NCBI GenBank assembly: GCA_020740775.1
Contig: JAHEWK010000008.1
Location: forward strand, 2,232,001-2,296,000
Direction of reading: 5' to 3'
From: Ilyonectria destructans
Taxonomy: Eukaryota > Ascomycota > Sordariomycetes > Hypocreales > Nectriaceae
Length of the DNA stretch: 64,000 bases
In this document: positions 1 to 24,747 of the stretch, in pieces
Numbering within the stretch: the stretch's first letter is position 1
Layout: each line of letters starts with the position of its first letter
Translations under genes and position numbers: made by a program
Notes under the pieces: model-generated
Told to the model about the DNA's origin: nothing
The model's input: only the letters and a program-made list of their open reading frames with translations
The model's database searches: none

Positions 1-3000
1 GGTTGCCTTGGTACAAAACTAACTTGGGCGAACATGAATGGTACTGAAATGCGCACATGGACAGAGACTGGTGATCTTCCTGTAACATGTCCTGACTTCG
101 ACGAAGTCCCGACAGCGGAGCAGAATCTGGCATCTCCACCGAGGAGCGGAAATTGCGAAAGTCAGCAGTGCACAGACAGCAAAGGGTTCAAGGAATAATG
201 TCCATTTGCGAAGAGCGCTTTCGGACACCAACCAGGCCCGATTCTTTTCAGGTGAGCGTGCACATGAATCCCGCGCTCTGTGAACCGCGCTTCTCTGGTA
301 CGTTTCAAGAAGGTATTAATATTACCAAGGGTATTCAGGTTCCAAAGACTGCTGTGCTCGCATCGTCGCGTACCTTCTTGTCGGGAGTCCAGCGAACTGC
401 AGGCGGTTCGCGGTGCGTGTTATCATCCTTGATCTCGACCTCCGACAACTCTTTTACCTCCAGATAATCTCCAAGTTGTGACGCTGGGGTATTTTTCGAG
501 ATCGAAGTATAGATTTCGAAGGAGGGCGAAAATGACAATAATTTCAGAACATGGCCGCTCAAAGCGGCCGTAAAAAAGAGCGACATGAAGTCCTGGATTC
601 TCGGGCTGGGTTCTCATGATGGATGAGATTCAATGCTAAAGTACTGTCTTGATACTGCCACAGTAAATGCAGAGCTTTCCCAATTGCGAATTGTTCATTT
701 AAAAACTCACTGAAGACAGATGGAGCGAGGGTTGGATGCATGGCTCTTGAGATTCGATTGCTTAAGATTGCCTGTGGGAGCGGTAGTTGGAGTTTGGACA
801 AGAAATCGATATTGCATATACGTATGGAAAATGATGACAGGTGAAAGAAGAGACGGTTGCAATATTATTTCCAAGGAGTGCAGTTTTATAAGCCTGAGTA
901 AGAAATAGCTCCCATCTGAAAAGGACATCTTTATGAACGCCATCCACCTGAGTAGGAGAAGGAAACAATGACGGAAAGAGTATCTCATAAGGGTCCAACA
1001 GATCTTTGTTGACTTTAAAATAACAGCACACTTCTAAATGTCATAAAAAAGTGTTTATCGAGAAGCAATCTTTGACAAGGGATTTTTCCAGCAGATGAAT
1101 ATATTTCCCAACAATCTTCAGCCAAATCTAAAGGAATAATAATACTAGCGACAAATGCTTAAAACTGTGGTAAGGCTAGATGGCAGCGTAAAGATTGCAG
1201 AGGTCTCAAAGCTGGAGGAAACAGAAGTATTCGCAACAATGCCATCTCGTCACAAGTCTCAGCAGTCACAGTAGCTGGGTCCTCGAAAACAAGATCGAGC
1301 AACCATTTCGCAATACCGCAGTGCTTGTAGTAAGTTGCATGGATCGTCAATTTTCGCAAGAAGTCAAGGTCTCAGAGAGTAGCTTCTTGTAGCCAGGTAA
1401 ACTTTTGCAGCTGGGACTCAGGGTGGGAAGCAGTATCATTGCATCTTTATCTCGTTAGTTATTATCCTGTCCCAAATTCTATAGCCCCTTCTCTTACTCA
1501 GTTTTTATGTACCAAGAATCTCGCTTTGTAATTTATATGTTGTGGTGTCTACAAAATAAAACATAATGTTTAAATGCGGGGGAGTTCCAAATGCAAAATC
1601 CGATATTGTCCAAATCGACCGACCCGGATTTGGAACGTGATCATCTGTGAGCTTGAACATGCCACGACGGGATTTTCTGCAGATTTTTCTTTTAATATTA
1701 AAGTGCCCCTGAAAATACCTGAAACGAAAAGTGGTCATTCTGCATCGGCCTCCCTCGTCCCGCGCTCGAGTTTGGCATTGAAGTGAACAAGCGACAGGTT
1801 CAAGAAGAAGCAAGAATTAGAATATTATTTGAGTTCATCTTTTAATTCTTATTTCTGAAAGTTGAAAGTCTTTAGCTACCTTAAATTCTCGTTTGCAAGT
1901 TCGCTGGCAGGTTGCCCCCGGTTAAGTAACTACTCTCGTCCTCAATTTATTCCCGCTCATCAATATTTGCAGTTATATTTTCTTTCTATTTTTCACTACC
2001 AGACATTCTCTGGCAATTGTTATTCTTTACTTATTGCTTTCTTTTTGTTAACTTATTCTTTATCTTAATATTCTGGAGAATTTCCCCCAGTACTGGTTAC
2101 TGTTATATATTATTTATTTTTTCTGCCTGCATTCCTTCAAATTTCACTTATCTTTTTAATAAGTATTCTTAACTCCTCTTTATTTCAACTTGGTATCTTG
2201 TTACGTTCGTTCCCTTTCTCAACCTGAATTACTTTTATTTTTATTCCTTGTCTCTCTATTAACATTTACCTTCTCTCAGTTTTAAAAGCTGGCATTTTAT
2301 CCCTGAGAAACGTTTCCTCCGTTTACTTAGAAAGAAAGACTCAAATCTAAAATGCCTGTAATCAGTAAATTTATCGACGATACAAGAAGTTATTTCCATA
2401 CCGTTCGTCTATATTAATTCAGAAGTAACAAAAGGATGAATATTTTTTGAAGGGCAATTAGAAATTTTATCTAATTAAAACTCCAATTCAGAAATACTTT
2501 AAACAGATTTTTGCAAAATTCGGCCTTAAAAGACTGAGGGATTTCTACAGGCACGACTCGATTCCAACCTACCCTGGCTCCGTAGCTGAACGCATCCTCA
2601 GGAGGAAAGTATGGCTCAAGCAACAAAAAATCTCGTTGTCTCGACTTTTGCATTTTCTTTAGCTGAAAGTAAACATTTCGCAATAAGACCAAGCAGTATA
2701 CCCTATCTACGAGCTATCAACGTTCTGGCTTTGTTCCTACCCTCTTGTGGTCTAGACATATCAAGACATAAGATAATGGGCCGAATTAATCCCTCGAGGA
2801 AGCCGAAAATTTTCGTCAAGATATTAATGCAGGTAACCAGAGACATGGTTCAAGAAGATCGTAGAACCGGCATCGTGACTACAAAAGTCCACTGTAGTTG
2901 CGAAATTGGCTTTTAGGAAGCTCCAAAGATAGCCCGTCAGAAGTGTGGTCAATAAATTTGGATCATATGACTTGGGAACAAGAGGATAACATGATGAAGC

Positions 3001-5510
3001 AAGGACAGCCCTCGAAATTTGATACAGCTGGGACTCGCGGGGGAGGAGAGGAGGACATCGGAATCAAGACCTTCATTAGTGAAGATGAGATTTAAAGTAT
3101 GGTTCCTTTGATAATGGTCCATAGTAAAATATGGCAATTTCGACAATTGAGATATCAGTGTGGAAAACATCATGTCGCGATCAGGCGAAGTCAAGTACCA
3201 TTGTGTCAGAGGGATGTGAATATTAAAAGTGTGGATCGTGAATAATGTCTGTTCAACATCGGGATGGATGCCGACTATTATTGGCACTGAATTTTTAAAT
3301 TGCTCTAGGTCGCTGAAATGTTGTTTTCGCAGCCATGACCCTGAGATGTTTGGCCGTGTTGTCCTGGGTCACAAGGGGAACGCAATTAGGTTGGGAGTGT
3401 TCTCTGTTGCATTATGCCCCATTTACTGGTGTAGCTTCTTGGGCAGCAATGCACAATTGCGAAAAATAGTTGGGATGCTTCTTTAAGCTCTTAAATACAG
3501 CATCCCATTCACAGTTTTCTACTCTGTCACCTCTAAGCTTCGACTGTCTTCTTCGAGGGATGTCCAATCGCGTGCATGCTTGTTTACGCACTCGCCCATA
3601 TCCAGCCTACCCGAGTCTCTGTCAAGCCTCAAAAGCAACAACCAATTGTTGTATATGAATGTTTCATTTGGATGGACATATTCTGGTGTTGCAGTTTTGC
3701 ACGCTGATGTAGCTGGCGCTTTGTCGCTGTGTCAAAAAACATAGCGGTCATGAAGTGGAAGGCACACTGCTTCATGCACGACCTGAAACCTGAACGCATT
3801 ACTCGAGAATAGAAAGATATTATTTACTGCCGAGACGCAACGAGTCAGCTGTGCAAGGTAAGAAAAAGATTCCATGCCAACTCTATGTGCCCATTTGTCT
3901 GCCGCTCTGTAATCGATCTGACAAAAGTCTGCCCATGCTCACCACGCCTCAATAAGTTCACATAATAATAACATCCCGCCAAGGCAACACCTCGCAGCGG
4001 TGTTACATCACCTTTTCTAGGCAGTATGAGTAACGGCCTGCCATGGCGACTTGGGTTGTTGTGGGTTTTAGATAGTGTAGGAAGACCCTTGCCACCCGTT
4101 AGATGCGAAAGTTGAGTAGTGAGTAATACACTTGGGGTATTCAGTATCAATATTTTTCCCGCCTTAATCTGGATAAAGCTATCACCAGTAGGTAAATCGC
4201 GAGACGCGATGTAGGCTGAGAGGCGCATCCGAACTCCTTTTAGTCGCCGCGGTTGCAGCACTTTAGTGGCAGAGGAGACAAGCAGTGTGCTGACCAGCTC
4301 ATCGTTTCTTGAGATATTCATGTACAGTTGCGAAAGGGTCGCCCACCCACCTTGACGCTAAAAACAGACGACCCACAAGCTCAACCAGATGAAGAGAAGC
4401 ATTCAATGTATTTTACAATGCAACTAGTCCGTAATTTGTCCCAACGTTAAGGGAAAAGTCGCCACATAACAATCGAAAGAGGCTGACTCACATTTTACAA
4501 TTCGCAACAGTAGTGAGGATTTCTGATTGACTCCGGCTGCCTGTCAAAAGCATTAGTAGTTTTGCATCTGTCATAATTAAAATCCATCATCACATATGGA
4601 AGGGTCATGACGGTTGTGGATGCGAATTACGTTGCTGCCTGGGTTAGGTGCGGCGTCCTGGATGCTACCTGGCCATCAGAGCGTTGCTTGCAAGACGACC
4701 TTTAGAATCTGTACGTCTGTGAATGATGAAGTTAGCTCGCAGAAACGCCATCTCAGCACCTAAGGCAGTTTGCAATATTGTAGTGAGAGAGCGTATGCTT
4801 CTCCAATAGCCTCGAAATTCTACATTGCGAAAAGCTCCGGTTACCACAAGTTAAGTCAAGCCCAGCCCAGCCAGCCGTCAACCTCAGCTCTCTTCTGTAA
4901 CAGCAATTGGTCCAATTTATGCAACATCCAACTCTCGCTACCTCTTGGAGACATTGGTGTAGCTTCTACGTCTCGCCCTGGACGGCCAGCTACATTCGGT
5001 GTCTTTCGCACCAGTTTCGCAGTTCTTGACCGCCACTCGTTTTCCTCCCCACTCGCCCCGCTGCAGTCCATTAAACTACAAGATGCATCCTTGATGATGG
5101 GAACGGAGATTTTAAATCGTTTCGTCTCATACTGAGACCCAGTCGTTCGCTGTCTAGAACTTTTCGCACCTAGATCAGATTGTCTATAGCAAGCCATCTC
5201 ATCAATCTTATCATCTAATTGAACTGCAATGGGATAGGCATGGTTATCGGAGTAGACAGCCGTTGGTAAGTTGTCGTAGTGGTGTGTGCTAGGCGTGTCA
5301 TGACGTGATTGAATTTGTGTCGATTTCTGGAGACCGAGGGTGGCGAGCGCGTTACCTTAACACACCAAACCGCGCCTCTCCCTGATCAAGCTTCTCACCG
5401 CGCTCCCCTGTGGTTGAGTAAATTATGAGTTCTTCTAATCTTCTCTCTTGCAATCATACATTGGAAACTATCGACTCTCAATCATCGCGTTCCTCGACTT
5501 CAAAGCAAGC
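1..5510. other. Gene-poor accessory DNA, no supportable gene
   Basis: Stop codons are dense in all six frames and no open stretch has a recognisable domain. The longest, a 158-codon reverse frame at 3845-4321, has no familiar motif and no convincing splice context. The stretch is AT-rich and carries 13 of the 55 TTTCGCA heptamers. I see no tRNA, rRNA, telomere repeat or terminal inverted repeat. Confidence 0.5.
1860..2300. other. Pyrimidine-skewed AT-rich tract
   Basis: About 440 bases with a strong excess of T and C over A and G on the plus strand, with many TTT, TTCTT and CTCTCT runs. No long open frame and no heptamer copy lies in it, and it falls in one of the longer heptamer gaps (1358-2676). 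It could be a diverged polypyrimidine tract of a lost gene or element; nothing decides this. Confidence 0.3.
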
Positions 5511-5852
5511 ATGAGCAGATCACGTAACAGCACTACGCTAAAGGTAACGACGAACAATACAGAATGCTCCAAATTTACCGCCATCTAAACCGTCGAGATC
5601 AAGTCAATCCAGTTAAGAATGAAAGAGGTACCGTCGGTCCTACGACGCCAGGAAGAAATCCGGAGTCGCAGTCTGACTTGCAATCGCAGCTATCGCCTTC
5701 TCGATGAAACGGAGAGAACAGATGGTGATGCAGTAAAGCAAGAAATCACTCCTACTCCACTACTGGAAATATTCGAGGGGCTGGAAACCTGTGATGACAA
5801 GTTCTGGGTACTTTTCGCAACATACCTGGCGAGCCCAACTTATGTAAAATAG
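5511..5852 (+). pseudogene. Possible small or decayed gene
   Basis: An ATG at 5511 opens a short exon (MSRSRNSTTLK) followed by a plausible GTAACG donor. After an acceptor near 5617 the frame is protein-like (Pro, Ser and Gln rich) for about 28 codons and then stops. A second frame takes over with an acidic, hydrophobic stretch ending SPTYVK at 5852. Joining the two needs a frameshift. Two heptamers sit at its end (5813, 5854). No family is recognised. This may be a broken remnant or chance. Confidence 0.22.
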
Positions 5853-6850
5853 GTTTCGCATCAAGCCCGAGTAAAGAAGGTGCACCTCGCAGGGGCGTCC
5901 GTTAATGATATGGCGAGGAAGCCGTTTAAGCTCTGATGCTGCCCGTCTCTATCTATCGTTTGCTCTTTAATTACTTTGAAATACCAACGTACTCTTCATG
6001 TAAATAATCTCTTCTTCTAGCAGCTTGGAGGAGATGGCTTTGAATAATCTGAGGACGCCAGCGCGGCCACGACACGCAAGCAGCGGAACAGCTCTGGGCG
6101 ATAAAAATACAAGCATTGAAATTGCCTTCAACTTTACTGAGGTAGGTGTTCTCATCGCTCTTTCTGGACTTTAAAACGTGCTCTTAGGGGGAAAGTTGTG
6201 AAATACCACCTCGGTTACGTTACTGGCATAACCCGCGATCGCGTGATGGTGGAGAACCGTTCGAGATTCTCTAAAAATATCAGAGTATAAACAATCTCCT
6301 AATCTAATAATATTCTAGTAGGCAACTCTTTCTGTAAGTGTAAGGATGTGGCTACTCGCTTTAGAGACAGGGGCGAATCGAGAAGGTTTGCATTCAGTCC
6401 CAGTTATTCAAGGGTATAACATACTCTGAGAAAATCCACTAGCATCTTAGCAGTCATCTGGCTATAAGTAATTTTGCTAATGCATTTAACTTTATCCTCA
6501 ATTAGATTGACTGTGTGGACTTGGAACCCAAGGTCCGTACTGGTGTAACAGTACGGCTATAATTGACTTTTGCGAAAACAAAAATGGATTATAATTATTA
6601 ACTATCTAAAACAGTTTACGACTCTGTGTTTTTATGACATACTTGACTTGAAAGGAGCTTATGAGCTAACTGATGGCGAATCTGATGAGGGTTTAAACGG
6701 CTTCTCTCGATCAACAGCTTTGTGGCACCGAGGGGGCCTCTCGTAGCGCTTTGTCTCAAGTGGGCAGGCATTGAGTAAGTCCCTCTTTATTTTAATACTT
6801 CGAGTTCTAAAAGGAAAGTTCACTAGAAATCTTGTGTCTTTAATGGCAGC

Positions 6851-7339
6851 ATGGATATCTACGTCCTGGACGACAATTTTAGTGGTGATGATGCAAATTT
6901 TGGTGAGGGGTTCATATCCGACAATGATGCCGATGACCGTAATATATATTCAGAACTCTTTCCCAAGGCTTTAGATGTGCTTCAGTGATGTAACTTTAAT
7001 AATAGTCGAAACATGCATGGAATGGAGACTGGATTTCGTGGCGAGTTATGGGTCGCGTTTTGCCTGGAGTTCTTTATGTCCCTTCTCTGGCTGGTTGGCG
7101 ACGAGCAGTATGAAGGGTGGTTGTGCAATTCATATTAATTTTCTTGGGATAACTTGGTGTATCCCTAGGTCTTTAGGAAGGCGGGTTTATGGAAGTATAT
7201 TTATTTCGCAATCGCAAAGAAATTCGCCTCAGGTCTGGTAGGATGCAATTATGGAGATTTTCCCCAGGATGCAGGCTTTCACCTTCAGATGGATGACAGC
7301 TTAGTTGTTTGCAAAAGATCTACATGGTTGATAATTTAA
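6851..7339 (+). pseudogene. Possible decayed ORF with three internal stops
   Basis: From the ATG at 6851 one frame runs 162 codons to a TAA ending at 7339, broken only by TGA, TAA and TAG. Each of these stops is one C-to-T change from an Arg or Gln codon (CGA, CAA, CAG). The N-terminal part is acidic and protein-like (DDNFSGDD, DNDADDRN, then a hydrophobic YSELFPKALDVL). The overlapping frame 6771-7241 has only one internal stop, so the choice of frame is uncertain. If real, the C-to-T pattern would suit repeat-induced mutation. No family is recognised. Confidence 0.28.
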
Positions 7340-8263: not shown

Positions 8264-9193
8264 ATGGCCCCCGCGAAGAAGACCCTGAAAGCTGGTCGCA
8301 AGGCGTCCAAGCCAAAACCGACGGCTTACGGATCCTACTTCACTGCCAACGATGGCATATACCGCTCGTTCCTCCGAGCTTGCTCGGCAGGTTTGGTAAA
8401 AGGCGTTGCTTATGGGCCAACTTTTGGGCAATTGGCTGGAGCTTTGATGGGGATCAAGGACAAGAACGAGAACAACCTGCCGGACTGCTGGAGAAAATTC
8501 GCCGACAGGCACAAGGCCCATGCGCACCTTCTTCGGCGATCTGTGGCGGAGTTTCGGGTCTCAAATGGCTCAAAGTATCAGCTGGATCTCCCAGAAGGCA
8601 CGGTAAAGATGAAGAAGTGGCTCGAAATCCGAAACCCAGATTACGAAACCGGGATGCCTCCTACTGCTGGGAGTGGGACGCCTGTCAAGCGCCTAGCAAA
8701 GGCCGCCACTGCTAAATCTCATGGCGGTAAGAATCTTAAGATCAATGTCTATGATGATGATGAAGATGTTGAGGACGAGAACTTTTCAGACCTCGATGAA
8801 GACGACAATTGCGGAGAGGAAGACGACAGCGGCAAGAAGGAGGCCGCCATGAGATTGAAGGAATGGCGCGAGAAGGGAAAAATGGCAGCCACGCTTCAAG
8901 AGCCGAACCACGACAACCTCGAGAGCGATCATACGCCATCAACATGGGGTCCGTTGTATGGCGACAGAGGAAATGCTACCAGCGAATTCGCGTCTGATTT
9001 TGCGAACTCCTCGGGTTACCCATTTGCGAACTCCTTTGCAAACGAACTGCAAGATTCGACAGCTGTCGCGGAGCAGAGTGATGGGATTCCTGGGCCTACT
9101 GGCGAGTTGCAAAATTCCAAGCTTGATGCAGAACAGAGCAATGGGTCTACTGAGCCATACCCCAGCATCCCAGTCGATCCTCTTCTCAAGTAA
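8264..9193 (+). CDS. Uncharacterised accessory family protein, member A
   Basis: Intact single-exon frame of 309 aa with no known family recognised. Residues 1-20 are Lys/Arg rich. Residues about 21-130 form a domain shared with the gene at 13584-15113: a YxxYF start, an IYRSF/WYRTF motif, LAxxMGxKD, LPxxW, AD, RRxxAEFR and a late YExG. Residues about 163-190 are very acidic, and the tail is Ser/Asn/Gln rich. There is no signal peptide or membrane segment; a basic-plus-acidic layout suggests a nuclear or chromatin role, which is inference. The ATG at 8264 is chosen because a spliced leader intron ends immediately before it, exactly as in the paralogue. No exact heptamer lies inside the exon, although two hexamers TGCGAA do (9001, 9025). 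Confidence 0.7.
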   Translation: MAPAKKTLKAGRKASKPKPTAYGSYFTANDGIYRSFLRACSAGLVKGVAYGPTFGQLAGALMGIKDKNENNLPDCWRKFADRHKAHAHLLRRSVAEFRVSNGSKYQLDLPEGTVKMKKWLEIRNPDYETGMPPTAGSGTPVKRLAKAATAKSHGGKNLKINVYDDDEDVEDENFSDLDEDDNCGEEDDSGKKEAAMRLKEWREKGKMAATLQEPNHDNLESDHTPSTWGPLYGDRGNATSEFASDFANSSGYPFANSFANELQDSTAVAEQSDGIPGPTGELQNSKLDAEQSNGSTEPYPSIPVDPLLK

Positions 9194-9778: not shown

Positions 9779-11012
9779 TTAGGCGTTTCGTTTCTTTTGC
9801 TGTCGCTCGCTTCGCTTGCGAAGAAACTCCTCGAACTCTTCAGGTTCAAGTGCTAGTTTCCTCTTCTTGTCCATGTGAATTCGAGCCCACTCAGCCCCCT
9901 CTTTCGCTTTCTTCCTATACTCCTCGGGATTGTTTTGTTTGAATTCCAGACGTCTCAGCTTCCTCTGCTTGTTTCTTTGAACCAGAGCGGCCTTTTTCTT
10001 CTTCTCCAATTTTTCCCACTCCTCGGGGTTTGTCTCTTTCAACTTTTCATGTTCCAGCTTGTTCCGCTTGTATTTTACCTGGGATTTGAAGCTGCTCACA
10101 AGTCGGGAGATTTCGTGACAAACTGAGAGTCGAAGGCCTTCTGTAAGACAGACATGAGACAACAAGCCATGCCAATCGACTTGGTCTTTCCACAGAATTG
10201 AGAGTAAGTTCAAAGCTGGCGGGTGATAGGCCTGGAAGAGTGTGGTGTAAGTAGCCTCAGCAAGTTGGCAGAGGAGACGATATCGAGTCCGCTGATAAGG
10301 ATCACTCTCAGTTTGACTGTTGGGGATATGAAGAATTGTAACCCATCCAGAGCGTCTCTGAACTTTGTCCTGCAGAAGAGAGTGGAAGAAAGACCTAATT
10401 ATCTGTTGTCAGAAGATAACGCATGAAGAGATGGCGTTAGACTTACCTTTTTTCTTTCTTGAGGTATTCTGGATTCTCCCGGTTTACACGTCGACAGTGC
10501 ATTCCTCTGGCACCAGTTGCCGAGCCCACATACAGATGGCTACTATGGCCATCCTCTTCTGGGGTGAGCATACAGCCATACACACCAAAGTCAAGTGTAT
10601 CAATCCATTGCTGACTGGCAAAAGTCTCTGAAGTTGGAGGCTGCTCTTGCGAAAGGAGAGATTTGATCTGAGGGTGTGTGTAATTCAGAATCTCAGTTGC
10701 CCACAATGTGGCGTTGGCATGATCCACGAAGTGCCTGGTAGCTGGACTCCATGGGACAAGCGAGGTTGGAGTGTCCAGGAAGGCTTGAATCTGACGAGAA
10801 ACGATACCAATGAGTTCAGCTGATTCGGTTTCGGGGCGGGGACGAGGCGCCATTCGTGAACTCATTTCCGGTGCACTTTTCTCAATTGCATCTTGAATCT
10901 CGACATGAAGCTGCGCCAGTTCTTCCGCGTTAAGGTCGTTCAGAGTACCAGGTGCGGCTTGCGGATCAGCGCCTGGTGCTTCGAGGGGCACAGATGGCTC
11001 GTGAAGCGACAT
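9779..11012 (-). CDS. GIY-YIG domain protein, two exons
   Basis: Start ATG at 11012; an open frame further upstream has no ATG. Exon 1 runs to about 10445, then a short intron (GTAAGT donor, CTGAC branch, AATTAG acceptor near 10393), then exon 2 to a TAA at 9779; about 395 aa. Residues 143-145 (GVY) and 161-163 (YVG), followed by GSATG and an Arg pair at 174-175, fit the two signature strands and catalytic Arg of the GIY-YIG nuclease fold. The last ~100 residues are a Lys/Glu-rich helical tail with three spaced PEE(W/Y/F) units. GIY-YIG domains cut DNA in homing, repair and restriction enzymes; here the substrate is unknown. One heptamer lies in exon 1 (10648), two upstream (11397, 11492). 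It could be a domesticated homing-type nuclease or an element-borne enzyme. Confidence 0.68.
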
Positions 11013-13583
11013 CTTCAAAACACCGCGCAATGCTCGACTTTCTTGGGTGTCTGGGATGTTCGATCGGTGCCGATTGCGAGAGAGTTGTGAAATGGAAAGC
11101 CGGTTTGAAGCCCAAGGCCAGCAGGTGGAAAATTGTTGTCACATCTTGACGGGGCGGAAGGAAGGAAGGCACCAGGTGCGGGAAGGAGCACCCAGCGAGC
11201 ACCGACCAACATTGGACAACGAGAAAGGTGAAGAATGAGAGAAGGCAGGGAATTGTTAGAGAAATACTTTTTTCCAGATACATTCTGTGTTGCAAAAAAA
11301 CATCTTGTATTTCTTCTCGAGAGCGTATTAGTTTCCAAGTCATTGCCATCAAGTTGGGAGGCACTCACTTGGCAAGATTCAGATGGCACACTCCAGTTTC
11401 GCAGCACTGTCTGCCTGTAATTGCTCACCCCCTCAGAATTGCTTTATGACCACTTATTTTCATGTCACAGTCTCGGGTTTATGGCACGCACTTTCGCATC
11501 TTGGGTGATTCCATATCGCGAGCGGTTTCGTATCGCCTAGCGCAGCCAGCGTAGGGTGTCCGCGACAGCTTATGAACCACCACATCGTGTGCTGGCTTCT
11601 TTATTTGTGATGAAACGACCAAGTGGTCTTATTGTTGTAGACGTTCCGATGTGATGAGCGTTGGTTTGTTGAAGCTGGGAATGTGTGGTGGTGGAGGTTT
11701 CTTGATTGTTGGAGATGGGTAATCTCAGTGATAGTGTGAATCACAGCGTGCTACCGCAGACGAGCTTCTTCAGTGCTCACAAGAGACAGAACCTGTCGTC
11801 TTCATACTTGTTGAAACGTAGCGCACGAAATAATCGCTTCAATCTCAACAACACTTGTCAGCGCAAGTCGGTAAACTCGAGCGAACCACACCAAGGAGGC
11901 AACAAAAGCCAGTAAGGCCATCAAGACATACTTTGAGTTCTTCTAGAGAGCCCCCATACCAATCTCTGCAGCCCAGAGGTAAATCTTGGACGAGCAGCCA
12001 ACATAATAATGTGGTACCATCTAATCCTGGCGCTAATTCGGAAAGCAGAGGATGCAGTACAGATGAGTTTCGCAAGAAGTGAGTGAGACATACTTTGCAA
12101 GTACCTAAGTTTAATCTCCCATCTTTTCTTCAAAATCACGAGGTGATCGAGACCGAGCAAGAGACGTGTAGAATGCAAGAGCGGGAGCGCAACTCCGGAG
12201 ATGTCGGCTATTTTCGCAAGATGTAAGCCTTACGATGTAATAAGATAGACTTCGGTGATCTTCGATCACTCCTCAACGATTGTCTGGAGCAAGACGATTT
12301 CGCATTTATATTTCGACTGTATCTCAATTTCATGGATTAAAAAACACAAGACCCAATGTCTGCACTTCATGAAAGAGTAGGCATATGACTACTGCGAAAT
12401 TGACGTTCCCCAACCCTACTCGGATATTTGATCCAATGTCCGCATCTTTTGTAAAGAGTAGGCGTGTGACTATTGCGAAATTGACGTTCCCCTACCCTGC
12501 TTGGATATTTGATCCAGTGTCATTCATCTCGGCGTCAGTAGTGGCGCTCTTGGGCCAGAAGTTCATGGGACTTGGCAGAGTATTGCAGTTATCTGTAGCA
12601 CAAAATGCCCATCGTATATACCCTACGCGGGCGGGGGTGATATTAGGACATGGTCCTAGGGAGGATTAGAACTTTGGACAGGGTGAAGACAGATGCAACC
12701 TGGTGTGAATCCTGAATAGAGCTGGACAAGGGTGACATTGAAGTTATGCTTTGCACAATCACAATGAGCTGGAATGCGACATAATTGCAGTACTAACAAT
12801 TATCCCAGAGTTTCCCAGGCGATGTGGAAGTTTGCGATTGCTCTTCGGCTGAGTATGGTTCTGTTGGTGAACAGGGTTGTTTTGTCCACATCGTCTCTTG
12901 CACGAAAATTAGTGTCGCTCGACAGCGCTACTTATTCCACAGCGTTGTCTAAGTAGCATCAATCCACACTGTCGCAAAGTATGTCGAAGATGCATCTAAT
13001 GTGATTTATCGTACTTATGTCGATGTCACTTATTAAGTTCTATAGCAGCTTATATTGACGTCTAAATACTATGTGGCTTTTCGCATCTAATGTGTTGGAC
13101 CTGTCTATGTTGATGGCAATTGTAATCTGCGCTCAAAAGGGCCCTACTGCCATAAACCAATATATAACCTGGATTGATAAGTCTAATAGCACTGGCGACC
13201 TGGCGACTTAAGGTGATACCGATAAAAATTATTGTTGGATTTCGCAGTATGCTTGGTAGCAAATAATGAGTAATAGTGAAAGATCAATTGTTCTGAGCTG
13301 TAAAAACTAAGCGATCCATATAAGAATGGTTTCATATCTTCATCATGTCTTGACGAGGTGAAAAATACCGCCCCAGTTAAAACTTCAAGATGATGCCATC
13401 TGCCCAGATATACCTAATCCCATGTATTCCATGTATCCCTGTCTCCCAGGTATCCCATTTAGAGATTCAACTGCCATAATCTGCCCAGAGAAAACCATCA
13501 TTGAGGAGCATCATCAAACTCCATAAAGCAAAAACATAAACGCCAGCTCACCCTTTCCCCTACTCTGACTTTCAATCCCAGAA
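11013..13583. other. Intergenic, heptamer-dense
   Basis: No supportable gene. The stretch from 11700 back to 11013 (reverse sense) resembles a CA/CC-rich leader for the GIY-YIG gene. A plus-strand frame at 11855-12082 ends near a GTGAGT donor and could be an isolated exon, but no partner exon was found. Ten heptamers lie here, five of them between 12068 and 12480. Confidence 0.4.
12349..12523 (+). repeat. 81-bp imperfect tandem repeat
   Basis: About 2.2 copies with a period of 81 bases: the AAAGAGTAGGC segment recurs at 12372 and 12453, and the ATCCAATGTC segment recurs around 12350, 12431 and 12511 with substitutions. Each full unit contains one TGCGAAA heptamer (12393, 12474), so local duplication contributes one extra copy to the motif count. 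Confidence 0.7.
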
Positions 13584-15113
13584 CTAAAAGTCCAGAAGAA
13601 AGAGACGGAGAATCTTGAAACTGCCAATCTCAAGATCGCGAGTCTGGATTGAACGTAAAGTGTCAAGAACCCGCACAAAGAACTCATCATTGTAAATCCC
13701 ATCAAGATCCAGGTTATTCTTTGCAATCGAGACTGCAAATGACCGGGAACTAAACTCCCCAAACCGTTCCAAGATTGCTCTAGCTGTAGCAAAGGAATAC
13801 TGAGAACGTAGACAGTCATGAACCAGTCCATTGTCATACTTTCGAAGCCAAATAATGAAATCTTTAACCTTCATGATGCCAAATTTCGGAGGCTTGGATG
13901 TCGGGTTGAGGCCAAGTAGACAAATGAATCGGGGAATAATTATGCGGAAACATCCTTGAATGACATCTTCTTCGCCTTCAAGGAATAGAGCCTTCAGAGA
14001 CTTCAGCTCACAGTCAAGAGTTTCTGCAATGAGGCATGTCAATCTTGTAGTAAGGAGGGAATCAATTCGAAGATCTTCAAGTTGAGAATCCGGGATAACA
14101 GCAGGAAGATCGGTGAACAGACTTGGGTCGAGTGGCTGTACTCTTTCGGAAGTAACCCAATTCAAAATGCAGCCGCAGAAGCCGGCGATTCGCTCTTGAG
14201 GGGTTTTCGAACTATGACTTTCCGGGATGAAGGGACTGAAAGGTATTTTGCTTCTACTGTCCTGAGTTTGGATGCTGGGGTAGACACATCCTTTGCTTCC
14301 ACTGTCCTGAGTTTGGATGCTGGGATAGACACATCCTTTGCTTCCACTGTCCTGAGTTTGGATGTCGGGATAGACACATCCTTCGCTCCCACTGTCCCGA
14401 GTTTGGATGCCTGGGAATGTCTGATCCTCGTGATTTCTTTTCGCAGTGGGATCCGAGGGGTGATCGTCATAGTGCCCCGTATCATTCTCGGAATCAGTAT
14501 CCTTTGCCGTATAAAACGTGGCATCAGTGTCATCATCCTCATCGGGCCCAGCTGTCCTGGCCTTCTTCTTTGCCTTCACTTCCTGGAAACTGCCTTTTCG
14601 CTTCTTTGGGACTGACAGAGTGCGAGGCTTCTTCGGAGTCGACGTTTTGGCTGGCTTCCGAGTTGGTGTCTTCTTTGGCGTTGCTGGGATAAGATCGAGT
14701 TCGGTTCGATGCGAATGTTCAGGTTTGATGTTGTCGGGGACAGAACCGCCTTCGTACTCCTTGTTGATCAGAGTGAGGAACTTCTTCTTCATGTACTTGT
14801 CCTCATTCCTCAGGGGAACCTGAAACTTCTGGTCGTTGTCTTGATTCCGGAGCTCAGCGGCTCCACGACGGTAGAGGCGAATCAACGGAGGGTTGAGATC
14901 AGCCAGTGCCATCCATTCCTTCGGGAGGTACTCCTCTGAAAAATCCTTCATGCCCATCAAGGAAGCGAGGTACTCGGTAGGTGGAGGAAGCAGGTCGATA
15001 TTTATAACCCCATTGTTCTTTTTCGCATCCTTGAGAGCAGCGACGCAATTGGCCTTGAACGTTCGGTACCAGGTGGACTTGGCCTTGAAGTACTTCTCGT
15101 ATATTGGTGGCAT
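13584..15113 (-). CDS. Uncharacterised accessory family protein, member B
   Basis: Intact frame of 509 aa. Residues 4-122 match the N-terminal domain of the 8264 gene product at low identity (YxxYF, WYRTF, LASLMGMKD, LPKEW, AD, RRGAAELR, MKK, YEGG). A strongly basic stretch with TPKK/PKKP-type units follows (about 145-185), resembling minor-groove-binding tails; then an acidic stretch (190-230), then three and a half 15-residue repeats (238-288), then a C-terminal region of about 200 residues with Leu-rich helices. No known family is recognised. In the leader, an intron with a CTAAC branch ends TTTTAG directly against the ATG at 15113, as in member A. Upstream heptamers sit at 15650, 15735 and 15804; two lie in the coding sequence (14439, 15021). 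DNA binding is inferred from composition only. Confidence 0.7.
   Translation of the reverse strand: MPPIYEKYFKAKSTWYRTFKANCVAALKDAKKNNGVINIDLLPPPTEYLASLMGMKDFSEEYLPKEWMALADLNPPLIRLYRRGAAELRNQDNDQKFQVPLRNEDKYMKKKFLTLINKEYEGGSVPDNIKPEHSHRTELDLIPATPKKTPTRKPAKTSTPKKPRTLSVPKKRKGSFQEVKAKKKARTAGPDEDDDTDATFYTAKDTDSENDTGHYDDHPSDPTAKRNHEDQTFPGIQTRDSGSEGCVYPDIQTQDSGSKGCVYPSIQTQDSGSKGCVYPSIQTQDSRSKIPFSPFIPESHSSKTPQERIAGFCGCILNWVTSERVQPLDPSLFTDLPAVIPDSQLEDLRIDSLLTTRLTCLIAETLDCELKSLKALFLEGEEDVIQGCFRIIIPRFICLLGLNPTSKPPKFGIMKVKDFIIWLRKYDNGLVHDCLRSQYSFATARAILERFGEFSSRSFAVSIAKNNLDLDGIYNDEFFVRVLDTLRSIQTRDLEIGSFKILRLFLLDF
14256..14410 (-). repeat. 45-bp in-frame tandem repeat
   Basis: About 3.5 copies of a 45-base unit inside the 13584-15113 gene, encoding the 15-residue unit DSGSKGCVYPSIQTQ with small changes. 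The period keeps the reading frame, so copy number can vary without breaking the protein. Confidence 0.85.
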
Positions 15114-16385: not shown

Positions 16386-17800
16386 TCATGCTACTGCGCC
16401 CTCCTCATCTGAATCCTCCGGGACAAAAAGATTTGGATCTTCATCAGGGTCGTGCACTTCCAACACCTTCTTCTCCCGCACTGCACGGAGTGCGTCTGGA
16501 AGGAGAGCCACGTCGACGTGCGAGTCCGGCACGAACTTCTGTAGCCTCTTCGAATTCGACAAGTTCTGAAACCGGTCGCTGAGAAACTTGGCTGTATACT
16601 CCTTACCAGCATCATCAGCATGGCATGTAGCTCCGCGGTTGACTCTCATTTTCACAAGCGCCGCCATCTCGATGTAGACAACTAGTACTGGTCAGGCAAA
16701 CAGCATTTCGCATTACATGTAGCGGACCACTCACTCTTGCACCATTTAGCGACTTTCTTCGAAGACTGCGGCAGGTTAATCTTCTTCTTGGTGAAATCGA
16801 ATATCTCGATAAACTCGTCCAGCTTGTAGAAGCTCTCCAGGTGTTGCTGGATGACGTTAAGCGCGGTTTGCCTTTTGAAGATTGGGAACTGTGAATCGAG
16901 CCGGCGAACGTGAATCTGGATTGATTGTAAGCAGGAGAACTTTGTTGGAGGAGTGTCGAGGCGGCATACGTAGAGGTTCTTGAAGGCATTGCAGCGCCAG
17001 CTGTTGATGTTGTTCTTGACCTTTGTCAGGCCTTCGCTCATTAGCACCATGTTGTCTACACCCTCAATAGAGCCAAGATGGTACTGGACGATGTCTTTCG
17101 CCATACTGTCATTGAACGTGCATAAGAAAGAGATTCTAGTGCTGGTCTCCAGGCTGTGGAAAATCGTCTTGATGGTGTGGTCGAGAGACAGTCTGATGTT
17201 GCGGTGTTGTCCACGCTTCCGTCGCCCGTTTTTGTCCAGAAGCTTCTCGATTATTTCGTCGCTGTCGGCCTAAATGCGAAAACACATGTCAGTTAACTGC
17301 TGCACAGGTCAAATCACGGAGCTGGTATACCTCGTCTTCAGCAGTCCCTTGGTCACTATGGTCCTCGTCAAGTTCGGAGTACAGTTCCTGGCTCTCCTGA
17401 TTCTCGACAAGTTGGTCCCGCTGGTCTTCCGCATCACAGTCCTCGTCCGGTTCGTGTCGTGGTTCTGGTCCGCTCAAAGCTGGGTCGACTCCAGTATGTT
17501 AGCGTCGAAGCGCGTCGAGGAGTGACGATACACACCAATGATGTCGGCGTTGTTCTCCTGGTAGCCGTGTCGGGGAGGAGATGGAGCTCGAGACTGAACG
17601 CGACTGGAAAAACTGCGGATGGAGCCAGTGGAACGAGGTTCCAGCGCTTTCTGTCGACGCCGAGACGTCGGGGATTCTCGAGTCCGCGGGACCGAGTCGG
17701 AGGGTGCGCTTCTTTTATTGCGGTTGACGACGGGTGTTGCGTATCGAGGCTGCTGCGCCGTCGTGGACGCGATGCCTGGGAGGTTGCCGATGTTTGCCAT
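16386..17800 (-). CDS. Orphan five-exon gene, function unknown
   Basis: ATG at 17800, stop at 16386; four introns with clean GT/AG ends join to a frame of about 396 aa. Residues 1-88 are basic and Ser/Pro/Arg rich. Residues 89-138 are highly acidic (Asp/Glu/Gln). Residues 139-300 look folded, with helices containing LSLDHTIKTIF and WRCNAFKNLY. The tail is acidic and ends in DSDEEGAVA. No family is recognised. Two introns carry the heptamer: the intron at 17271-17330, where it sits 4-10 bases from the acceptor, and the one at 16682-16734. The splice junctions all keep frame, which supports a functional gene. The acidic/basic layout would suit a nuclear adaptor, but that is inference. Confidence 0.65.
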
Positions 17801-18177
17801 CGTCTGTGATGATGCAGACGACAGTTTGGAGTGAAGTGATGGGGGCGACGAGAAATCATTTTCTCTGCCCTCCTAGAAGATGCGGTGGAAGGTGCCACCT
17901 GCATACGGCGTGGTGAAGTTGGAGGAGGAGTGCCGGGAGGTGATGCTGAATGGCGCTTTATCTGCTCCAGCCACTAAAACCTGGCGACGGGCGGCTGCGA
18001 AAAATGCTCCACTCTACTGCCCACTGCGAACCTTGGTCCTTCTGCAGACACCACCCCACCAAGAAGAGCATTGGTAAGAAACCACTTTGCAACCCTTGCT
18101 ACAGACTAGATATATATCTGGAGATGTCCCGATAATATGCTAATACCATTCTATAGGTGACATTTATCTCCTGCACA

Positions 18178-21100
18178 ATGTCATATCGGAGAGTGCGTCG
18201 CCTTGAATTCACCATCCCATCCCTTCGCGATCCGCGTGGGGTTCCAGTACGGGCATCTCGCAGGCGTGGAGATAGTGAGCTGGCGAATGATGTGCCAACT
18301 CCAACCCAACATCAAGTGCGAAACCCCTCGAAACTTCCCTCTGCTGCAGCAGACCGCGTTGACGGAGAGCAAGACGCGCCTAAAGCCGACCGAGGTTCCG
18401 ACTGCGGAAACCGAACCGGAGTCGAGCGTTGGCTCAATGACATTGCACGGGACCCCGCCGACGAAGTTCATGACTACCGCAGGTCTCGATAACGGCGACG
18501 CGGGATGGGGCCTCGACGCTCCTGAGGATTACGATAGCGGGAACAGCGAAATTTTAAATGATCCCGAGAATGCACTCCAGGTAATAGAGCAGGTTTTCGC
18601 AAACATCGCCGTCGACTTGCCCAATAACAACATTGACGGCGATAGCGGGTCTGCTCGCCCTGCAACAGCAGCTCATGTCCTCGACACGCCTGCCATACAC
18701 GCCGAAACCACCACACCAGGAGACGAAGTCGAGTACGATAGGGTCTCATACATTTGCGATGAATAACACGATGCCAGACATTCAGAACCTGATGACGTCG
18801 GTTTCGATGTCCTCGATTCGCCTCTCGATGAAAGCCTGGCGTTGCAGCCAAACCATCGCAATAGCGCCAACTCCTCGCGTTCTGGTAACAATTCACCAAA
18901 CACAATGCTACATTCCGAGCCGCTTTCCCATTCTAGACGACCGCTGGACGACCCAACAACAGAAGAAGTTCATACTCCAACATTTCCATGCCTGTCCGCG
19001 TTCGAGGGTGCTCTGATGCTGTGGGAGCAGCAACATCATGTTTCGCGACAGGGTCATCGAGAACTGGTCGAGGTTCTTCAGATGGTTTCTGATGTGAAGG
19101 AACTTCGTTCATTACCTGTCTATAAGGACACGCTTAGCTGACGTCTCCAGAAGAGTCTACCACTACTTCCCCTCCGCCGTCGAACGTTAGCCCTGGATAT
19201 GTCGGTTATGCCGTCCAGAAGCAAGCCAACCGAGGATGTTCTCTCGTTTGACCTCAGAGTTGTGCTTCAAATATTTTTATCGTCACCGCAGAATATGAGC
19301 CTTGTGTATCGCGGCATGGCGAAATTAGTCGAAGGCTCTGTCAAGGAGCCATGGGAGGCGAGATGGTGGGGCGAATCAATCCGCACAACGTCGGGGCATT
19401 GCATCAAGGATGCCACCGGACATCCCCTGTGGCCGTCTGATTGCATTTGGTGGCGCTGCGACAACGCCGAGTGCGAAAAGCAGCATATTGGGAGGATCAC
19501 TTGGTGTGGTCATGACTTCACGGGCCGATCGAACTTCGAAGGCAGGCCGACATTGCGCGTGCAGGAGATGTTTTCGACGCTGAGCCTTCCCCGACTGCTG
19601 TTCGAATTGAAGGACCAGGCGAACTTCCACGATGCCATAGAAGAAACAAGCGTCCCACTCCAGACCCAAGAGAAACTTTCAGCTCCCCAAGAACTTGTCA
19701 TCATGTTCGATCAGGACCAGCTCATCAGCCCCGCCCAAATTGCCGGTCGTCTCTCCGATGTCTATATCGACTACGACTACGACCAAACGAAACAGCCAGC
19801 GGAACCACCGCTGTCGCACAACTTTACCATCCGTTTCATCTTTTCAATGTCACAACAACGGTTTCGGTCAGTCAAATTAACAACCCCACTCCGCGCTGAG
19901 AAGGAGATCATGGTATTTGGTCGCAAATATTTAGAGGAGAAGTTTTCTGATGCTTCCATGATCTCGCTCCCATTCTTTCTCTTTGTCGACGCATTTGGAC
20001 TGTACCGAAATATGTACTATGTACCGCTCACTCATGGGGTTTTACCCTATTCCACAGTTTCTAGAAAAGCAACATCGCGATCGCCGAAAGAGTGTCATCC
20101 CACTCGCACTTGGACCGTTTGGCACAAAGACTACTGAAACGTTTGAGTCTTTGGCGCAGCTGATCAGTTTGGATAACGGCATGGAAATGGAGATTAATGG
20201 CAGACAAATATTTGTTTGTTCATTTATCGGCGCAATTCTCGGCGACATGCCCAGCCAACAACTTCTCTCGGGGTGTCTTGGGCCAAGGGCGAACAGATCT
20301 TGTCGATACTGCTTAACAACGAAAGATGAACTTTCAAATCTCGGATATCATATCGTGGAGTTTGGGAGATACAGCGAACAACTGCGTCGTGACTTTAATC
20401 GAGTCCGGGCTATCCCTAGTAAGGTGGCACGACAGAAGGCGCTCAAGGATCTCGGGCTCCATAATAAGTGGGATCTGAAGGTTCTAGGTTCGTCTAACGG
20501 TGGTGCGCAGATGGAGTTACACTAACGATTGGACAAGATTCGCTCTTCCCCTGTCTTGATCCAAGACAAAGTCGGCCAGTCGATGCAGCTCATTCAGAAT
20601 ACCAGAGCATTGCGAAAACTCTTTACGCCCTCATATTCGATGAGCCTGGCATATTCACCCAAACAGCATTAGAAGACTTCTCTAAAGTGTTCAATACTTT
20701 TCCATTCCCACCTGGATGGAAGCAACTCCAGTCCCCCACCCGACATTTACTTTCATGGCGTATGCGAGTGCGCTCGAGGCGCAATTATTCTCCCCATCAT
20801 ATTCCGAGTCTGGCTCAAGAGGAACCATATCAAGAAGGACATGCAGGTTTCATTGGAGCAACGTGCCCGTGATTATTTTCGGTTCGAGATGTTCACTCAT
20901 GATGCCCGAAGGTTTAGCTGCGTCGAATGGTTAACAGCAGCATGTTGGGTTTTTGCCAAATCAGTTCTTTCTGTATGCAGTCCATTCTCATACTCAGATG
21001 CCAACTTCCAACAAGCTATAGTGGACGGACGCAAAGCAGTACAATTCATTGTTCAGTCATGTATTACAGCAAAGCATCTAGCAGAACGCAAAAGTAAGTT

Positions 21101-22340
21101 CATCCACATTCTATTTATCACAAGATTTAAAATATCTTGATCGAATGCAAAATTAACCTGGTTTCAGGAAACGCAACCACTGCAGCAAAGAAACGCCAAA
21201 CTCAACTTACTGGGGCCCCAAGTATTATCAGCGATGTAGCCACGACAACTGCAGACAGTCTGATTCTGTCGGAAGTGGGAAATCCTGGTGCTAGCGACGC
21301 TTCATCCAGGGGAGGCGCAGCAAAAGAATATGGTCTTGCAATCAAAATGAAACTCCCAAATATCCATACCGGACTCCATCTCCAAGAAGTCGCCCAGGAG
21401 TACGGCGGGTGTAACATGGTGTTCACGCTTCTTGAAGAGGATAAACACAGGTATGTAATTATCGCTCTGGCATCATCTTCTGCTCCTAATCTTCTCCTCT
21501 TCTAGAGAATACAAATCGGACATCCTCGCGACAAACTTCCACAATGCTGCCGCTACGTTAATTAAGCGGGAAAACTTCCGACTCACCATCGCGTTTCTAT
21601 TTGACAATTGTTTTCAAGATTCTCATCCGGAGATTCATAGAATATTCCAATCTGTTTATAAGAGCTGTCCAAGCCTGGCCGCTTCTCTGGATCATCGATA
21701 TGGAGAAGGTGAGGAGAGTTTGGCTGACACGTCAGAAGTGCCGCTCGTAGGCGACGAGCGCCACATGCGCCCGCTCGCTCTGAAACGGATTCTCATTGCG
21801 AAATCTAACGTCGATGCAGTCATATTCGTCGGCGTGCAGTTTCCAAAGGACCTAGATGACCAACATCCGTTCATCGTCCAACTGCGAAATTCCTATCGCC
21901 AGGACTACAACGTCCCAGCAATAACGCACTTTGAGAAGAACGCATTCCAGTGGAGCCAAAGGATTTCTTTCGCACCGAGGTAATCCCCATATTCTCCCAC
22001 TCGGCAATCGCCAATCATACTTACATATTGGGGTAGTCATCAAAAGCGAGTTTGTTTCAGCGTCGGAGACTTCATTTGTGTCAGATCTAAATTTGCCCGC
22101 CTTGAAGGATTGTTCGTCCATGCCCGAGCGACACAACGATATCTGTTCGCGGTAGTGGAGTATGCACAGATAAGACAGACGGGAGAAACAAAGGAGTTGG
22201 TTCTGGAGACGGATATTTATGAACTTAACGGGCAGCGTGAGATTATTGGTCTCCCAGCGATTATGGAAGATCACATCTGGATGATACCACGATATGACAG
22301 TAGCCTTCTATTTATTAATTACAATGTGTCATTCTTGTAA
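18178..22340 (+). pseudogene. Decayed Tnp2/CACTA-like transposase
   Basis: A long transposase-like sequence with the pattern I associate with fungal Tnp2-type proteins: FFLFVDAFGLYRNMY, then LGPFGTK, ILGDMPSQQ, a CRYC pair, VDAAHSEYQ and a late VGDF...YLFAVVEYAQ stretch. It is broken in several ways. A TAA at 18764-18766 and a TGA at 19139-19141 interrupt an otherwise continuous frame; each is one C-to-T change from CAA or CGA. A 7-bp tandem duplication (TATGTAC at 20011-20017 and 20018-20024) shifts the frame, and further shifts lie near 20525 and 20750. Downstream introns at about 21094, 21452 and 21979 still splice well. A leader intron precedes the ATG at 18178. Seven heptamers lie within it. 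The KDZ group is an alternative family. Confidence 0.7.
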
Positions 22341-22766
22341 CAATTGGGTTATATTCGGGGAGAGCAGTAGATCTAAGTTGATATTTTTCGCATCCACCAA
22401 TCCAGCTTTAACTGCATCCTCCCTCAGGCCAGTTGCACAATAAACATTCTCAGCTCAGTGACCACTAACCTCAACTGACTTTTCGATGTAGAATAAAGCA
22501 TGCCCATAGGAATCAAATCATCACCAGGCCAGGCCAACTACATCCGCACTCAGGCTGTAAGTTTCGCATCCTAAACATACCCCAATGCCGGAGCCACTCG
22601 CTTGCTCAACCACCAGAGCCGCAGGAAGCCATTCAGACACACGGCTTCGCCTGCCCCTTGTCTTCACCTCTCCTCGCGCCTTCCTCACTGCGAAACTCCA
22701 GACCGTATGTCTCCTCCCTGTCGCGCGTCCTAGAGTCTTCCCTTCTGGTCAATCGTTTCTGAAATC

Positions 22767-23868
22767 CTAACATTGACCGTTCTCTCCATCGGACGGCATG
22801 GCAAACGCCATTATCACTTCTGCGGCTCTGGGTTCTGAAACCATCTCCATCGTTGCCAGGACACCCTCTAACCGGGACACAGGTTCGTTATTGCGAAAGT
22901 TCGTCTCCTCCATCTCTCCGAAACTCCCAGGCGGCGTGTTGGGCGTTCTGACACCCAGACTCGGTATGTTTTCTGCGTTTACCTCTGCCCCTGGAATCGC
23001 AGCCGATGCTGGAGAAGCGCCATTCGTTTCTGATCTGGAGAAACTGATTCTTCTAGGAGGAGAAAGCTTTCCTGCCTCTCTTGGGTTTCTGTCCGTCATG
23101 ATCATCTGGTCGTTGAGAGAATGTCGTGGATGGTATGTCCCCGGAGTATCAGCTGTCATTCAGTCTTTTTTCCGCTCCCCATACTGATATATTTTAGGAT
23201 ACCATCCCCTGTCGCTGAGGTCTGATCTGTCTTGGTTGATGTTGGGTGTCAGTCGAAGTTTTGCTACACCCTTCTGGATGCTGTCGAGGTTTGCTTGGTT
23301 GGTGGCGTGGGAGTCTTGGGAGGCCTGTACTCTATCTGTCCCAAGTTATTCTTGTGCTTTGTCTTGCTAACTGCACCTACAGGTTTTTTATCAGCGTCTT
23401 TTCGCAGCAGATTAAGGAGTGTGATGCTTAACGGGTATTGTAGCGGAGGCATCTTACCTGGAGTCAACGACTGATCAGCTGCTAGGAAGTTCTGCCACCA
23501 GTTCACAAGCCACTGCCAGTTCGCTGTCCATCGCCGGTTCGCAGTCCCTCGCCAGTTCGCTGTCCCTCGCCAGTTCGCTGTCCATCCCCAGTTCGTGAGC
23601 AGTGTCTAGTTCCTGATTCGAGGTGCAAGTACTAACCTGATCACCGTCATGGCTGGCTTGTCTAGGTATATCGGTTATACGCTGGCGACGAACGAGTTCC
23701 AGGACACCGCCTCTTCACGCCTCCTGTCGCCGGATCGACTCGAGCGGAGCGTGTCCAGGAGAGAAGAGTATATATTTCAGACTTCGCTTGATCTCTAGCA
23801 GATTTCCTGAATCGGGTGGTATCTATTGACGGGGCATCTTGCTCACGCGTGAGTGCTTCTGGCGACAT
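22767..23868 (-). other. Possible multi-exon gene, unrecognised
   Basis: Several reverse-strand open pieces with protein-like composition line up: MSPEALTREQ from 23868, a DSELAR-repeat stretch near 23600, a WWQNFLAADQ piece near 23490, and a 130-codon Pro/Ser/Arg-rich piece ending at 22767. Between them are GT/AG pairs with plausible branch sites, one of which would contain the heptamer at 23400. I could not build one unambiguous spliced frame across 23500-23700, so this may be a low-complexity gene, a remnant, or chance. The opposite strand also has a 129-codon frame at 22798-23187, which looks less protein-like. Confidence 0.28.
23516..23602. repeat. 18-bp minisatellite
   Basis: Four units and a partial of an 18-base repeat, starting at 23516, 23534, 23552, 23570 and 23588, consensus CCAGTTCGCTGTCCMTCG. 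The period is a multiple of three; on the reverse strand it reads as repeated DSELA(R/M). Confidence 0.8.
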
Positions 23869-24747
23869 GTCCCTTGGAGTGAGTTCATGCTGACGTTGGG
23901 CCTGGTCTGGAGGTATCAGCGATCATCGCGACGCAGGCTATTACGACTCATCTCCGATAGCGAGGCTCAGATTCCGAGGATCTCCAAGTTCTGGAGTATC
24001 AGCTACCTTATGTCACGCATGGACAGCAGCGCGCTGGTGACTGAGCAGGGAAGCTGGAGTTAAGTGTGTTCTACTGCGCAGCTGAACTCGGTTGGAGATG
24101 CTAATACCAGAAACAGGTTCGCCCGCGTTTTCGCATTCAAGCTATGGAGTTCTGCCATTCTGAAACCAATTTTTTTGTATGTCGTATCTAAAACACTACA
24201 GTGATAATTGACCACAACTAACTGCACCACCACTTTAGCTTCATCATTTACCGTCCAGTACTTACAAATTAGCTTCATCTACCGTCCAGGTACATAAGGT
24301 GAGCGGGGTAATGAAAATTCTGCGCGTCATCTGCCTGCACTAATTGACCGAGCTGTTTTCTAGTTCCAGCATATAAAAGTTTGTTCTTTGTCCAGGCCGA
24401 GGTTATTGGATATCTGCGGCATTAGCAATGGGATCTGGGGCGGGTATTGCGACAGTATGGTTGAGTTAATGCAGTTATGGAAATCAAACTACTATAGAAT
24501 AACAATTGATGTGTTTTCGCATTGCATGTTGAAATTTGCAAATGGAAGCTGGACTCGCGTGATATGGAGCTGGACATTCAAACAGGATTCATATGCTGCG
24601 TTTTCGCAGAGAGCTTGGAGATACAATCAACATTTCAGCACACATCACCTGGACCGCCGAGACGCTATTCTGCTCACAATATAATCTTCATCTCAATGTA
24701 GCTTGACCTTAGACAGCATTACAGTAGATACATATATTCTTTTCGCA

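Follow-up and report, generated by a model that had tools for sequence, protein, structure and literature searches.

An exact heptamer fills a putative mobile element of Ilyonectria destructans, and a sister element carries a related word

Introduction

What keeps one exact seven-base word dense along a single stretch of a fungal genome? The stretch analysed here, called the window throughout, comprises 64,000 nucleotides of Ilyonectria destructans (contig JAHEWK010000008.1, positions 2,232,001 to 2,296,000); positions are counted from its first base, and negative ones lie to its left. The word, TTTCGCA, crowds the left part of the window, over what looks from its sequence like a low-copy, old mobile element. 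A sister element elsewhere in the genome is enriched for a related but different word. There is about an even chance that each element lineage marks its own DNA with short sites for a protein that it encodes; this protein would bind the sites and, by analogy with known systems, counter silencing.

The TTTCGCA field

An earlier note on this DNA, made from the letters of the window, had described the heptamer as dense over the left 24.7 kb and near background in the next 39 kb. Counts on both strands bear this out, with 55 copies at positions 1-24750 (32 forward, 23 reverse) and 6 at 24751-64000. The right end that the note placed near 24747 stands, but the left end had been cut by the window. 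With 100 kb of flank examined on either side, the field extends from -2686 to 24741 (the start of its last copy), and its true left end lies between -3094 and -2686, beyond the left edge of the window. It holds 62 copies in 28.2 kb, or 2.2 per kb, of which 35 are on the plus strand and 27 on the minus strand.

1 to 24747, both strands: the part of the TTTCGCA field inside the window, with 55 of the 62 copies; the other 7 lie at -2686 to -400

The distribution over window and flanks shows sharp field edges, and the flanks (235 kb) hold 27 copies. Such density is not ordinary in this genome either: 7,577 copies in 71.67 Mb amount to 0.106 per kb (5,083 for the same letters in reversed order), which predicts about 3 copies in 28.2 kb against the 62 observed.

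The enrichment belongs to the full heptamer, as the note had also held: on the left side ATTCGCA occurs 5 times, CTTCGCA 2 times and GTTCGCA 4 times. Heptamers of the same composition (n = 420) average 3.85 copies in the element, and the runner-up, with 19, is TTTCGCA shifted by one base and overlapping it. Markov models of order 1, 2 and 3 predict 5.2, 6.8 and 8.2 copies of TTTCGCA within the element. Together, these comparisons rule out base composition or low complexity as the cause of the field. A longer ordinary repeat fails as an explanation too, as the 62 copies are scattered over both strands without a strong further flanking consensus. Their context shows a pyrimidine at the second base 3' of the word in 51 of 62 copies, giving the extended word TTTCGCAnY, along with a scarcity of C directly after the word (6 of 62) and a lean towards T or A before it. 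At window positions 1-26000 just one tandem array, of two copies, contains the word, with two sites.

Among one-mismatch variants, the products of CpG transition are in excess, with 14 copies of TTTTGCA (3.9 expected) and 6 of TTTCACA (2.4 expected). Other transitions number 13 (15.7 expected), and transversions, at 66 (57.0 expected), lie barely above expectation. Because the CpG-transition products alone are in clear excess, TTTCGCA seems to decay slightly through CpG mutation and otherwise to stay exact. Their joint count of 20 against 6.3 expected shows mutation bias at work on the word, and in its favour this could be said of the idea that the heptamer is a by-product of mutation or gene conversion confined to this stretch, with no factor bound to it. 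The observed bias, however, destroys TTTCGCA and does not make it, and we know of no process that would build up a single exact heptamer in both orientations and leave its other neighbours unenriched. This explanation is the remotest of those weighed here.

Gaps between the sites look random, with a mean of 450 bp and a coefficient of variation of 1.05. Pairs 80-96 bp apart number 11 against 2.2 expected (best 17-bp bin, p 0.005; window -2686 to 24602). They occur in several orientation combinations, and one of them lies inside the tandem array. The sister's word, described below, shows no such excess at this spacing (2 pairs, 1.7 expected).

The element in the window

The field ends within about 0.4 kb of a diverged flanking repeat on the left and of a probable end sequence on the right. 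The putative element and its borders comprise the following features.

8264 to 9193, plus strand: open gene of 309 amino acids; its N-terminal domain of about 110 amino acids has no Pfam family; candidate motif binder
9779 to 11030, minus strand: two open reading frames (ORFs), 10443-11030 and 9779-10408, with no Pfam hit
12624 to 12667, minus strand: 44 nt that repeat the right-end sequence in inverted orientation, with 89% complementarity to 25043-25086
13584 to 15113, minus strand: open gene of 509 amino acids, a paralogue of the 8264 gene with the same N-terminal domain and no Pfam family
16386 to 17269, minus strand: ORFs 16386-16691 and 16685-17269, the latter weakly related to a sequence of the sister element (C67, about 1379816)
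18599 to 22340, plus strand: transposase-like region, weakly Plavaka-like; the sister's transposase is 48-60% identical to it in six longer pieces
25043 to 25086, plus strand: probable right end, containing CACCCCCGCCCGCGTA; it fits a pattern with four matches in the genome
25246 to 25488, plus strand: right copy of the diverged direct repeat, whose left copy lies at -3350 to -3094

Among the ORFs scanned, a subset of all ORFs, Plavaka was the only transposase family matched, and weakly: the window transposase scored E 0.0053 (16.5 bits) and a second match E 0.017 (14.8 bits), with the curated cut-off at 26.3 bits. The transposase region contains two in-frame stops before 20017 and a frame change near that position, which is why the window transposase is probably not functional. 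Judged by eye, the two ORFs at 9779-11030 may form one two-exon gene with a GIY-YIG-like product. In the sister element, a minus-strand ORF of about 830 amino acids (1383808-1386300) also looks GIY-YIG-like by eye; two pieces of it gave no convincing Pfam hit.

The pattern CACCCCCN{0,4}CCGCGTA, derived from a 22-bp repeat at the sister's borders, has four matches in the genome. Two are the sister's ends, and two lie here, at 25071-25086 and, inverted, at 12624-12639. A reversed-pattern control has 6 matches, so four is not unusual as a number; the unusual point is that all four fall in these two elements. The right end of the window element is probably at 25086. No target duplication was seen beside the inverted 44-nt pair (12624-12667 and 25043-25086).

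Such ends bear on one alternative to a chromatin role. The field coincides with an element that encodes a transposase, and the sites could act in transposition: bound by the transposase or by some accessory protein, they would help in assembling a large element or in picking its ends, as TnpA sites do in CACTA subterminal repeats. Related CACTA elements do use short subterminal sites. Here, though, the sites are spread as if at random, with no concentration near the ends, and the 44-nt end sequences contain no TTTCGCA, all of which makes this role improbable.

Each copy of the repeat that brackets the element resembles a gene for a structured non-coding RNA, and the copies also have upstream sequence in common. 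This reading is drawn from the predicted fold, in which the repeat's two best-conserved blocks pair with each other. A genome search with the 165-base core of the right copy finds only the two bracketing places. Rfam gives no gathering hit in the window or in the fetched left flank; the right copy has a sub-threshold snR3 match (16.6 bits against 100, E 0.62), and the left copy has none.

A sister element with its own word

The earlier note had asked whether bins enriched elsewhere would fall together with copies of the element's genes. For TTTCGCA itself they do not, but for a related word they do, at the only further complete gene set that the genome searches located. This set forms sister element B, on C67, where relatives of four genes keep the order and orientation seen in the window. 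Both sister paralogues are nearer to the 8264 gene than to the 13584 gene, and the match to the third gene is short (36% over 53 amino acids, E 6e-6). Sister B is a 21-kb insertion (C67:1371336-1392325) that splits an NmrA-like gene, leaving profile positions 2-82 in the left half and 102-298 in the right half, and an exact 22-bp direct repeat marks its borders. Because the insertion splits this gene and is bordered by the repeat, the element family has moved at least once.

TTTCGCA forms no field in sister B (5 copies, 2.3 expected). A de novo motif search there uncovered a dispersed word, CGCAAKW, with 46 copies in 20.9 kb, or 2.2 per kb (45 after binning, 11.4 expected). Its log10P of -13.3 compares with a best of -8.6 and a median of -6.2 in 28 control segments, which overlap, are masked for tandem repeats and all come from the flanks on the window's own contig, C73. 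Earlier scans did not separate the sister from its controls. Without masking, 4 of 10 controls outscored it and its best pattern was degenerate and AT-rich; with limited degeneracy, 3 of 10 did so for 7-mers and 4 of 10 for 8-mers. These failures are attributed to tandem repeats in the right flank, and once these were masked the sister stood above all 28.

The window element shows no cross-enrichment, as CGCAAKW not preceded by TTT occurs there 14 times with 13.2 expected. Since TTTCGCA and CGCAAKW both contain CGCA, the likeliest reading of this one pair of words is a single ancestral site whose flanking preference has shifted.

Genome scans with two spaced-pair patterns returned no further field, though both detect same-orientation pairs only and a sparse field would be missed. 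The pattern TTTCGCAN{70,100}TTTCGCA matched 23 places (6 in the reversed control), 8 of them here and 15 scattered. For TTTCGCAN{0,30}TTTCGCA there were 26 places (8 in the reversed control), one of them here; of the scattered remainder, nine belong to two tandem heptamer runs and a 30-bp repeat. At C34:3561030-3561057 and C56:2176887-2176914, four TTTCGCA copies each stand in a short tandem run that is, as far as seen, unrelated to the field. Weak 8264-type matches occur at C12:3510656, with three stops in the matched frame, and at C1:6506759. Neither locus has any TTTCGCA in the 3.3 kb examined around it, and CGCAAKW occurs there 1 and 0 times, respectively.

Sites inside coding DNA

The word also occurs within genes. 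The open-frame pieces of the element (7.4 kb) contain 9 sites, against a mean of 1.61 and a maximum of 7 in synonymous-codon shuffles; none of 5000 shuffles reached 9. This test leaves out sites 18317 and 18595, which lie upstream in the transposase region, where the gene model is unclear. Site density is 1.2 per kb in coding DNA, about half of the 2.6 per kb outside it. Five transposase sites fall in the pieces compared with the sister, and because they align without gaps to the sister's codons, they look like substitutions and not insertions.

Sites in coding DNA and on both strands would also be accounted for by a host DNA-binding protein with a role in the cell cycle, chromatin or silencing. 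The element would then have accumulated its sites, or been selected for them, either to recruit the factor or as a mark set by the host. That CGCA is common to the words of two otherwise greatly diverged elements fits this idea as well. A single host factor, however, does not predict two element-specific words without cross-enrichment in one genome, and the two same-orientation patterns found no third TTTCGCA cluster. We consider a host factor unlikely on balance, though deserving of real weight.

Relatives of the element's proteins

The N-terminal domain of the 8264 protein, which the 13584 protein shares, is predicted to form four helices at residues 31-95, in a fold computed from six aligned sequences that is confident at about residues 30-95 only. 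A single-sequence fold was uninformative (predicted local distance difference test, pLDDT, 41.9). The helical domain (31-95) gave no convincing structural match, and PDB sequence matches were all at E 0.13 or worse. Searches that reached relatives sharing short exact words found few for these proteins: P0001 (93%), P0002, P0003 (Fusarium culmorum) and P0005. For the transposase, they found 10 proteins at E 1e-5 or better, including P0008 (Claviceps citrina); a CxxC motif is present in 6 of the 8 examined.

The sources of P0002 and P0009 are listed with largest contigs of identical length, 255,701 bp, and so are those of P0005 and P0007, with 30,583 bp. Because these values coincide, the two gene kinds, the 8264/13584 type and the transposase, seem to travel together, which suggests that the module recurs. 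Viral contigs scanned with P0007 gave no match.

These relatives also speak to a foreign origin, in which the DNA would come from a donor rich in TTTCGCA genome-wide and the field would be a signature of that genome, comparable to HIP1 or DNA uptake sequences. Two observations agree with such an origin: 4-kb bins have a GC content of 0.42-0.52 within the field against 0.46-0.57 outside it in the flanks, and the boundaries are sharp. Those relatives that carry an organism name come from Fusarium culmorum and Claviceps citrina, however, and element B, though related, is enriched for another word; a foreign donor is very improbable.

Proposed mechanism

The preferred reading is that of a reader encoded by the element. 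The exact word recurs along the full length of the element, occupies both strands as well as coding and non-coding DNA, and is exchanged for another in the sister; for these reasons its reader would be a protein of the element lineage. Best placed for this part are the two paralogues, since a pair of them occurs in each element and no other role for them is evident. TTTCGCA, or TTTCGCAnY, would then be the recognition site of an element-encoded DNA-binding protein, most likely the product of 8264 or 13584. The earlier note had taken the word for the target of one specific factor, maintained over a large element or accessory region. The element agrees with that proposal in part, as do the scattered layout of the sites over both strands and into coding DNA and the sister's own word; for the factor itself there are candidates.

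Many weak sites along the whole element and on both strands would allow the protein to coat it and keep its chromatin open. Coating could alternatively hold the element together as a transposition substrate. Dense weak sites would also confer specificity for the element, so that the roughly 7,500 isolated sites elsewhere would be ignored. Protein and site would change in step as one element lineage splits from another. By analogy with VANC, opening of chromatin (anti-silencing) is the favoured function, with the building of a transposition complex as the alternative.

A broader version of this reading is more tentative, at somewhat short of even chances. It holds that members of the family are tagged from end to end, even in coding DNA, with an exact word that selection of point changes has produced and that an element protein of a new helical family reads, with word and protein changing together. 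This system would have originated independently outside plants and would be dispersed, not tandem.

Comparison with known systems

CACTA/EnSpm elements encode TnpA, which binds many short sites of its own element, clustered within a few hundred bases of the ends. A candidate element-encoded factor with many short sites of its own is a point of likeness here. The earlier note had also named CACTA subterminal repeats as an analogue, and in this it was mistaken, as the sites here fill 28 kb without subterminal concentration. Where CACTA-type elements have inverted ends and a 3-bp target duplication, the window element has the inverted 44-nt pair, with no target duplication seen beside it. The weak Plavaka matches place the transposase distantly in the same broad clade (clade after PMC12730594).

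The likeness to the Plavaka transposons of fungi lies in the weak transposase match, below the cut-off, and in the CxxC motif in 6 of 8 examined transposase relatives. Plavaka elements are reported to make 2-3 bp target duplications and to have TGT..ACA or CATCA..TGATG ends (PMC12730594). Sister B differs, as it is bordered by a 22-bp direct repeat and not by a 2-3 bp duplication. It does have TGT one base inside the left repeat and ACA overlapping the first two bases of the right repeat, too little to call Plavaka ends. The right end of the window element is of neither the TGT..ACA nor the CATCA..TGATG type.

Starships span tens of kilobases, have direct repeats at their insertions and carry genes beyond the transposase. 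The elements here resemble them in their tens of kilobases, the direct repeats at the borders of sister B and the genes beyond the transposase. They differ in the captain: DUF3435 tyrosine recombinases have 10 matches in the genome, none within either element.

The logic of the system is VANDAL/VANC-like, and the element is assigned to no named family. In VANDAL elements a short word is dense in one lineage and seldom reaches that density elsewhere, the words of related lineages differ, and density is thought to give specificity (PMC5735166, PMC10398659). Two elements of one genome show the same likeness here, each with a lineage-specific short word. The parallel drawn in the earlier note therefore survives in its logic but not in its layout: VANC targets are mostly tandem repeats of one orientation that lie in non-coding DNA (PMC5735166), whereas here the sites are scattered over both strands and enter coding DNA (9 in coding pieces). 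The hosts and proteins differ too, as VANDALs are Arabidopsis elements of the MULE superfamily, and here the host is a fungus, the transposase is weakly Plavaka-like and the binder is a candidate. A literature search that covered few subscription papers did not find TTTCGCA as a whole word, and no such fungal system appeared in the titles and abstract starts among the matches listed.

To our knowledge, plant VANDALs are the only known case of such self-recognition. If the proposal is true, sequence-specific self-recognition has also evolved in a second group of mobile elements, unrelated to the VANDALs. It would offer a fungal model for the co-evolution of a protein with dozens of scattered sites, and a new candidate family of DNA-binding proteins whose two words can be tested at once. 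Even apart from the mechanism, an exact heptamer enriched 20-fold over 28 kb, beyond what codon use explains, calls for a reader of the word.

Neighbouring genes and repeats

To the right of the field lie an Opi1-like factor (29330-30658), a HAT_KAT11-type histone acetyltransferase (39828-41564), a DUF7924 protein (51265-52740) and a PDDEXK_12 protein (56069-57481). An open frame of 1423 amino acids at 59014-63285 has a partial NPHP3_N match and ankyrin repeats, and contains 21.6 tandem units of 99 bp at 59582-61722. Right of the window, tandem units of 126 bp, a period of 42 codons, occur at 65240-66054 and 71560-75531, in 6.5 and 31.6 copies, respectively.
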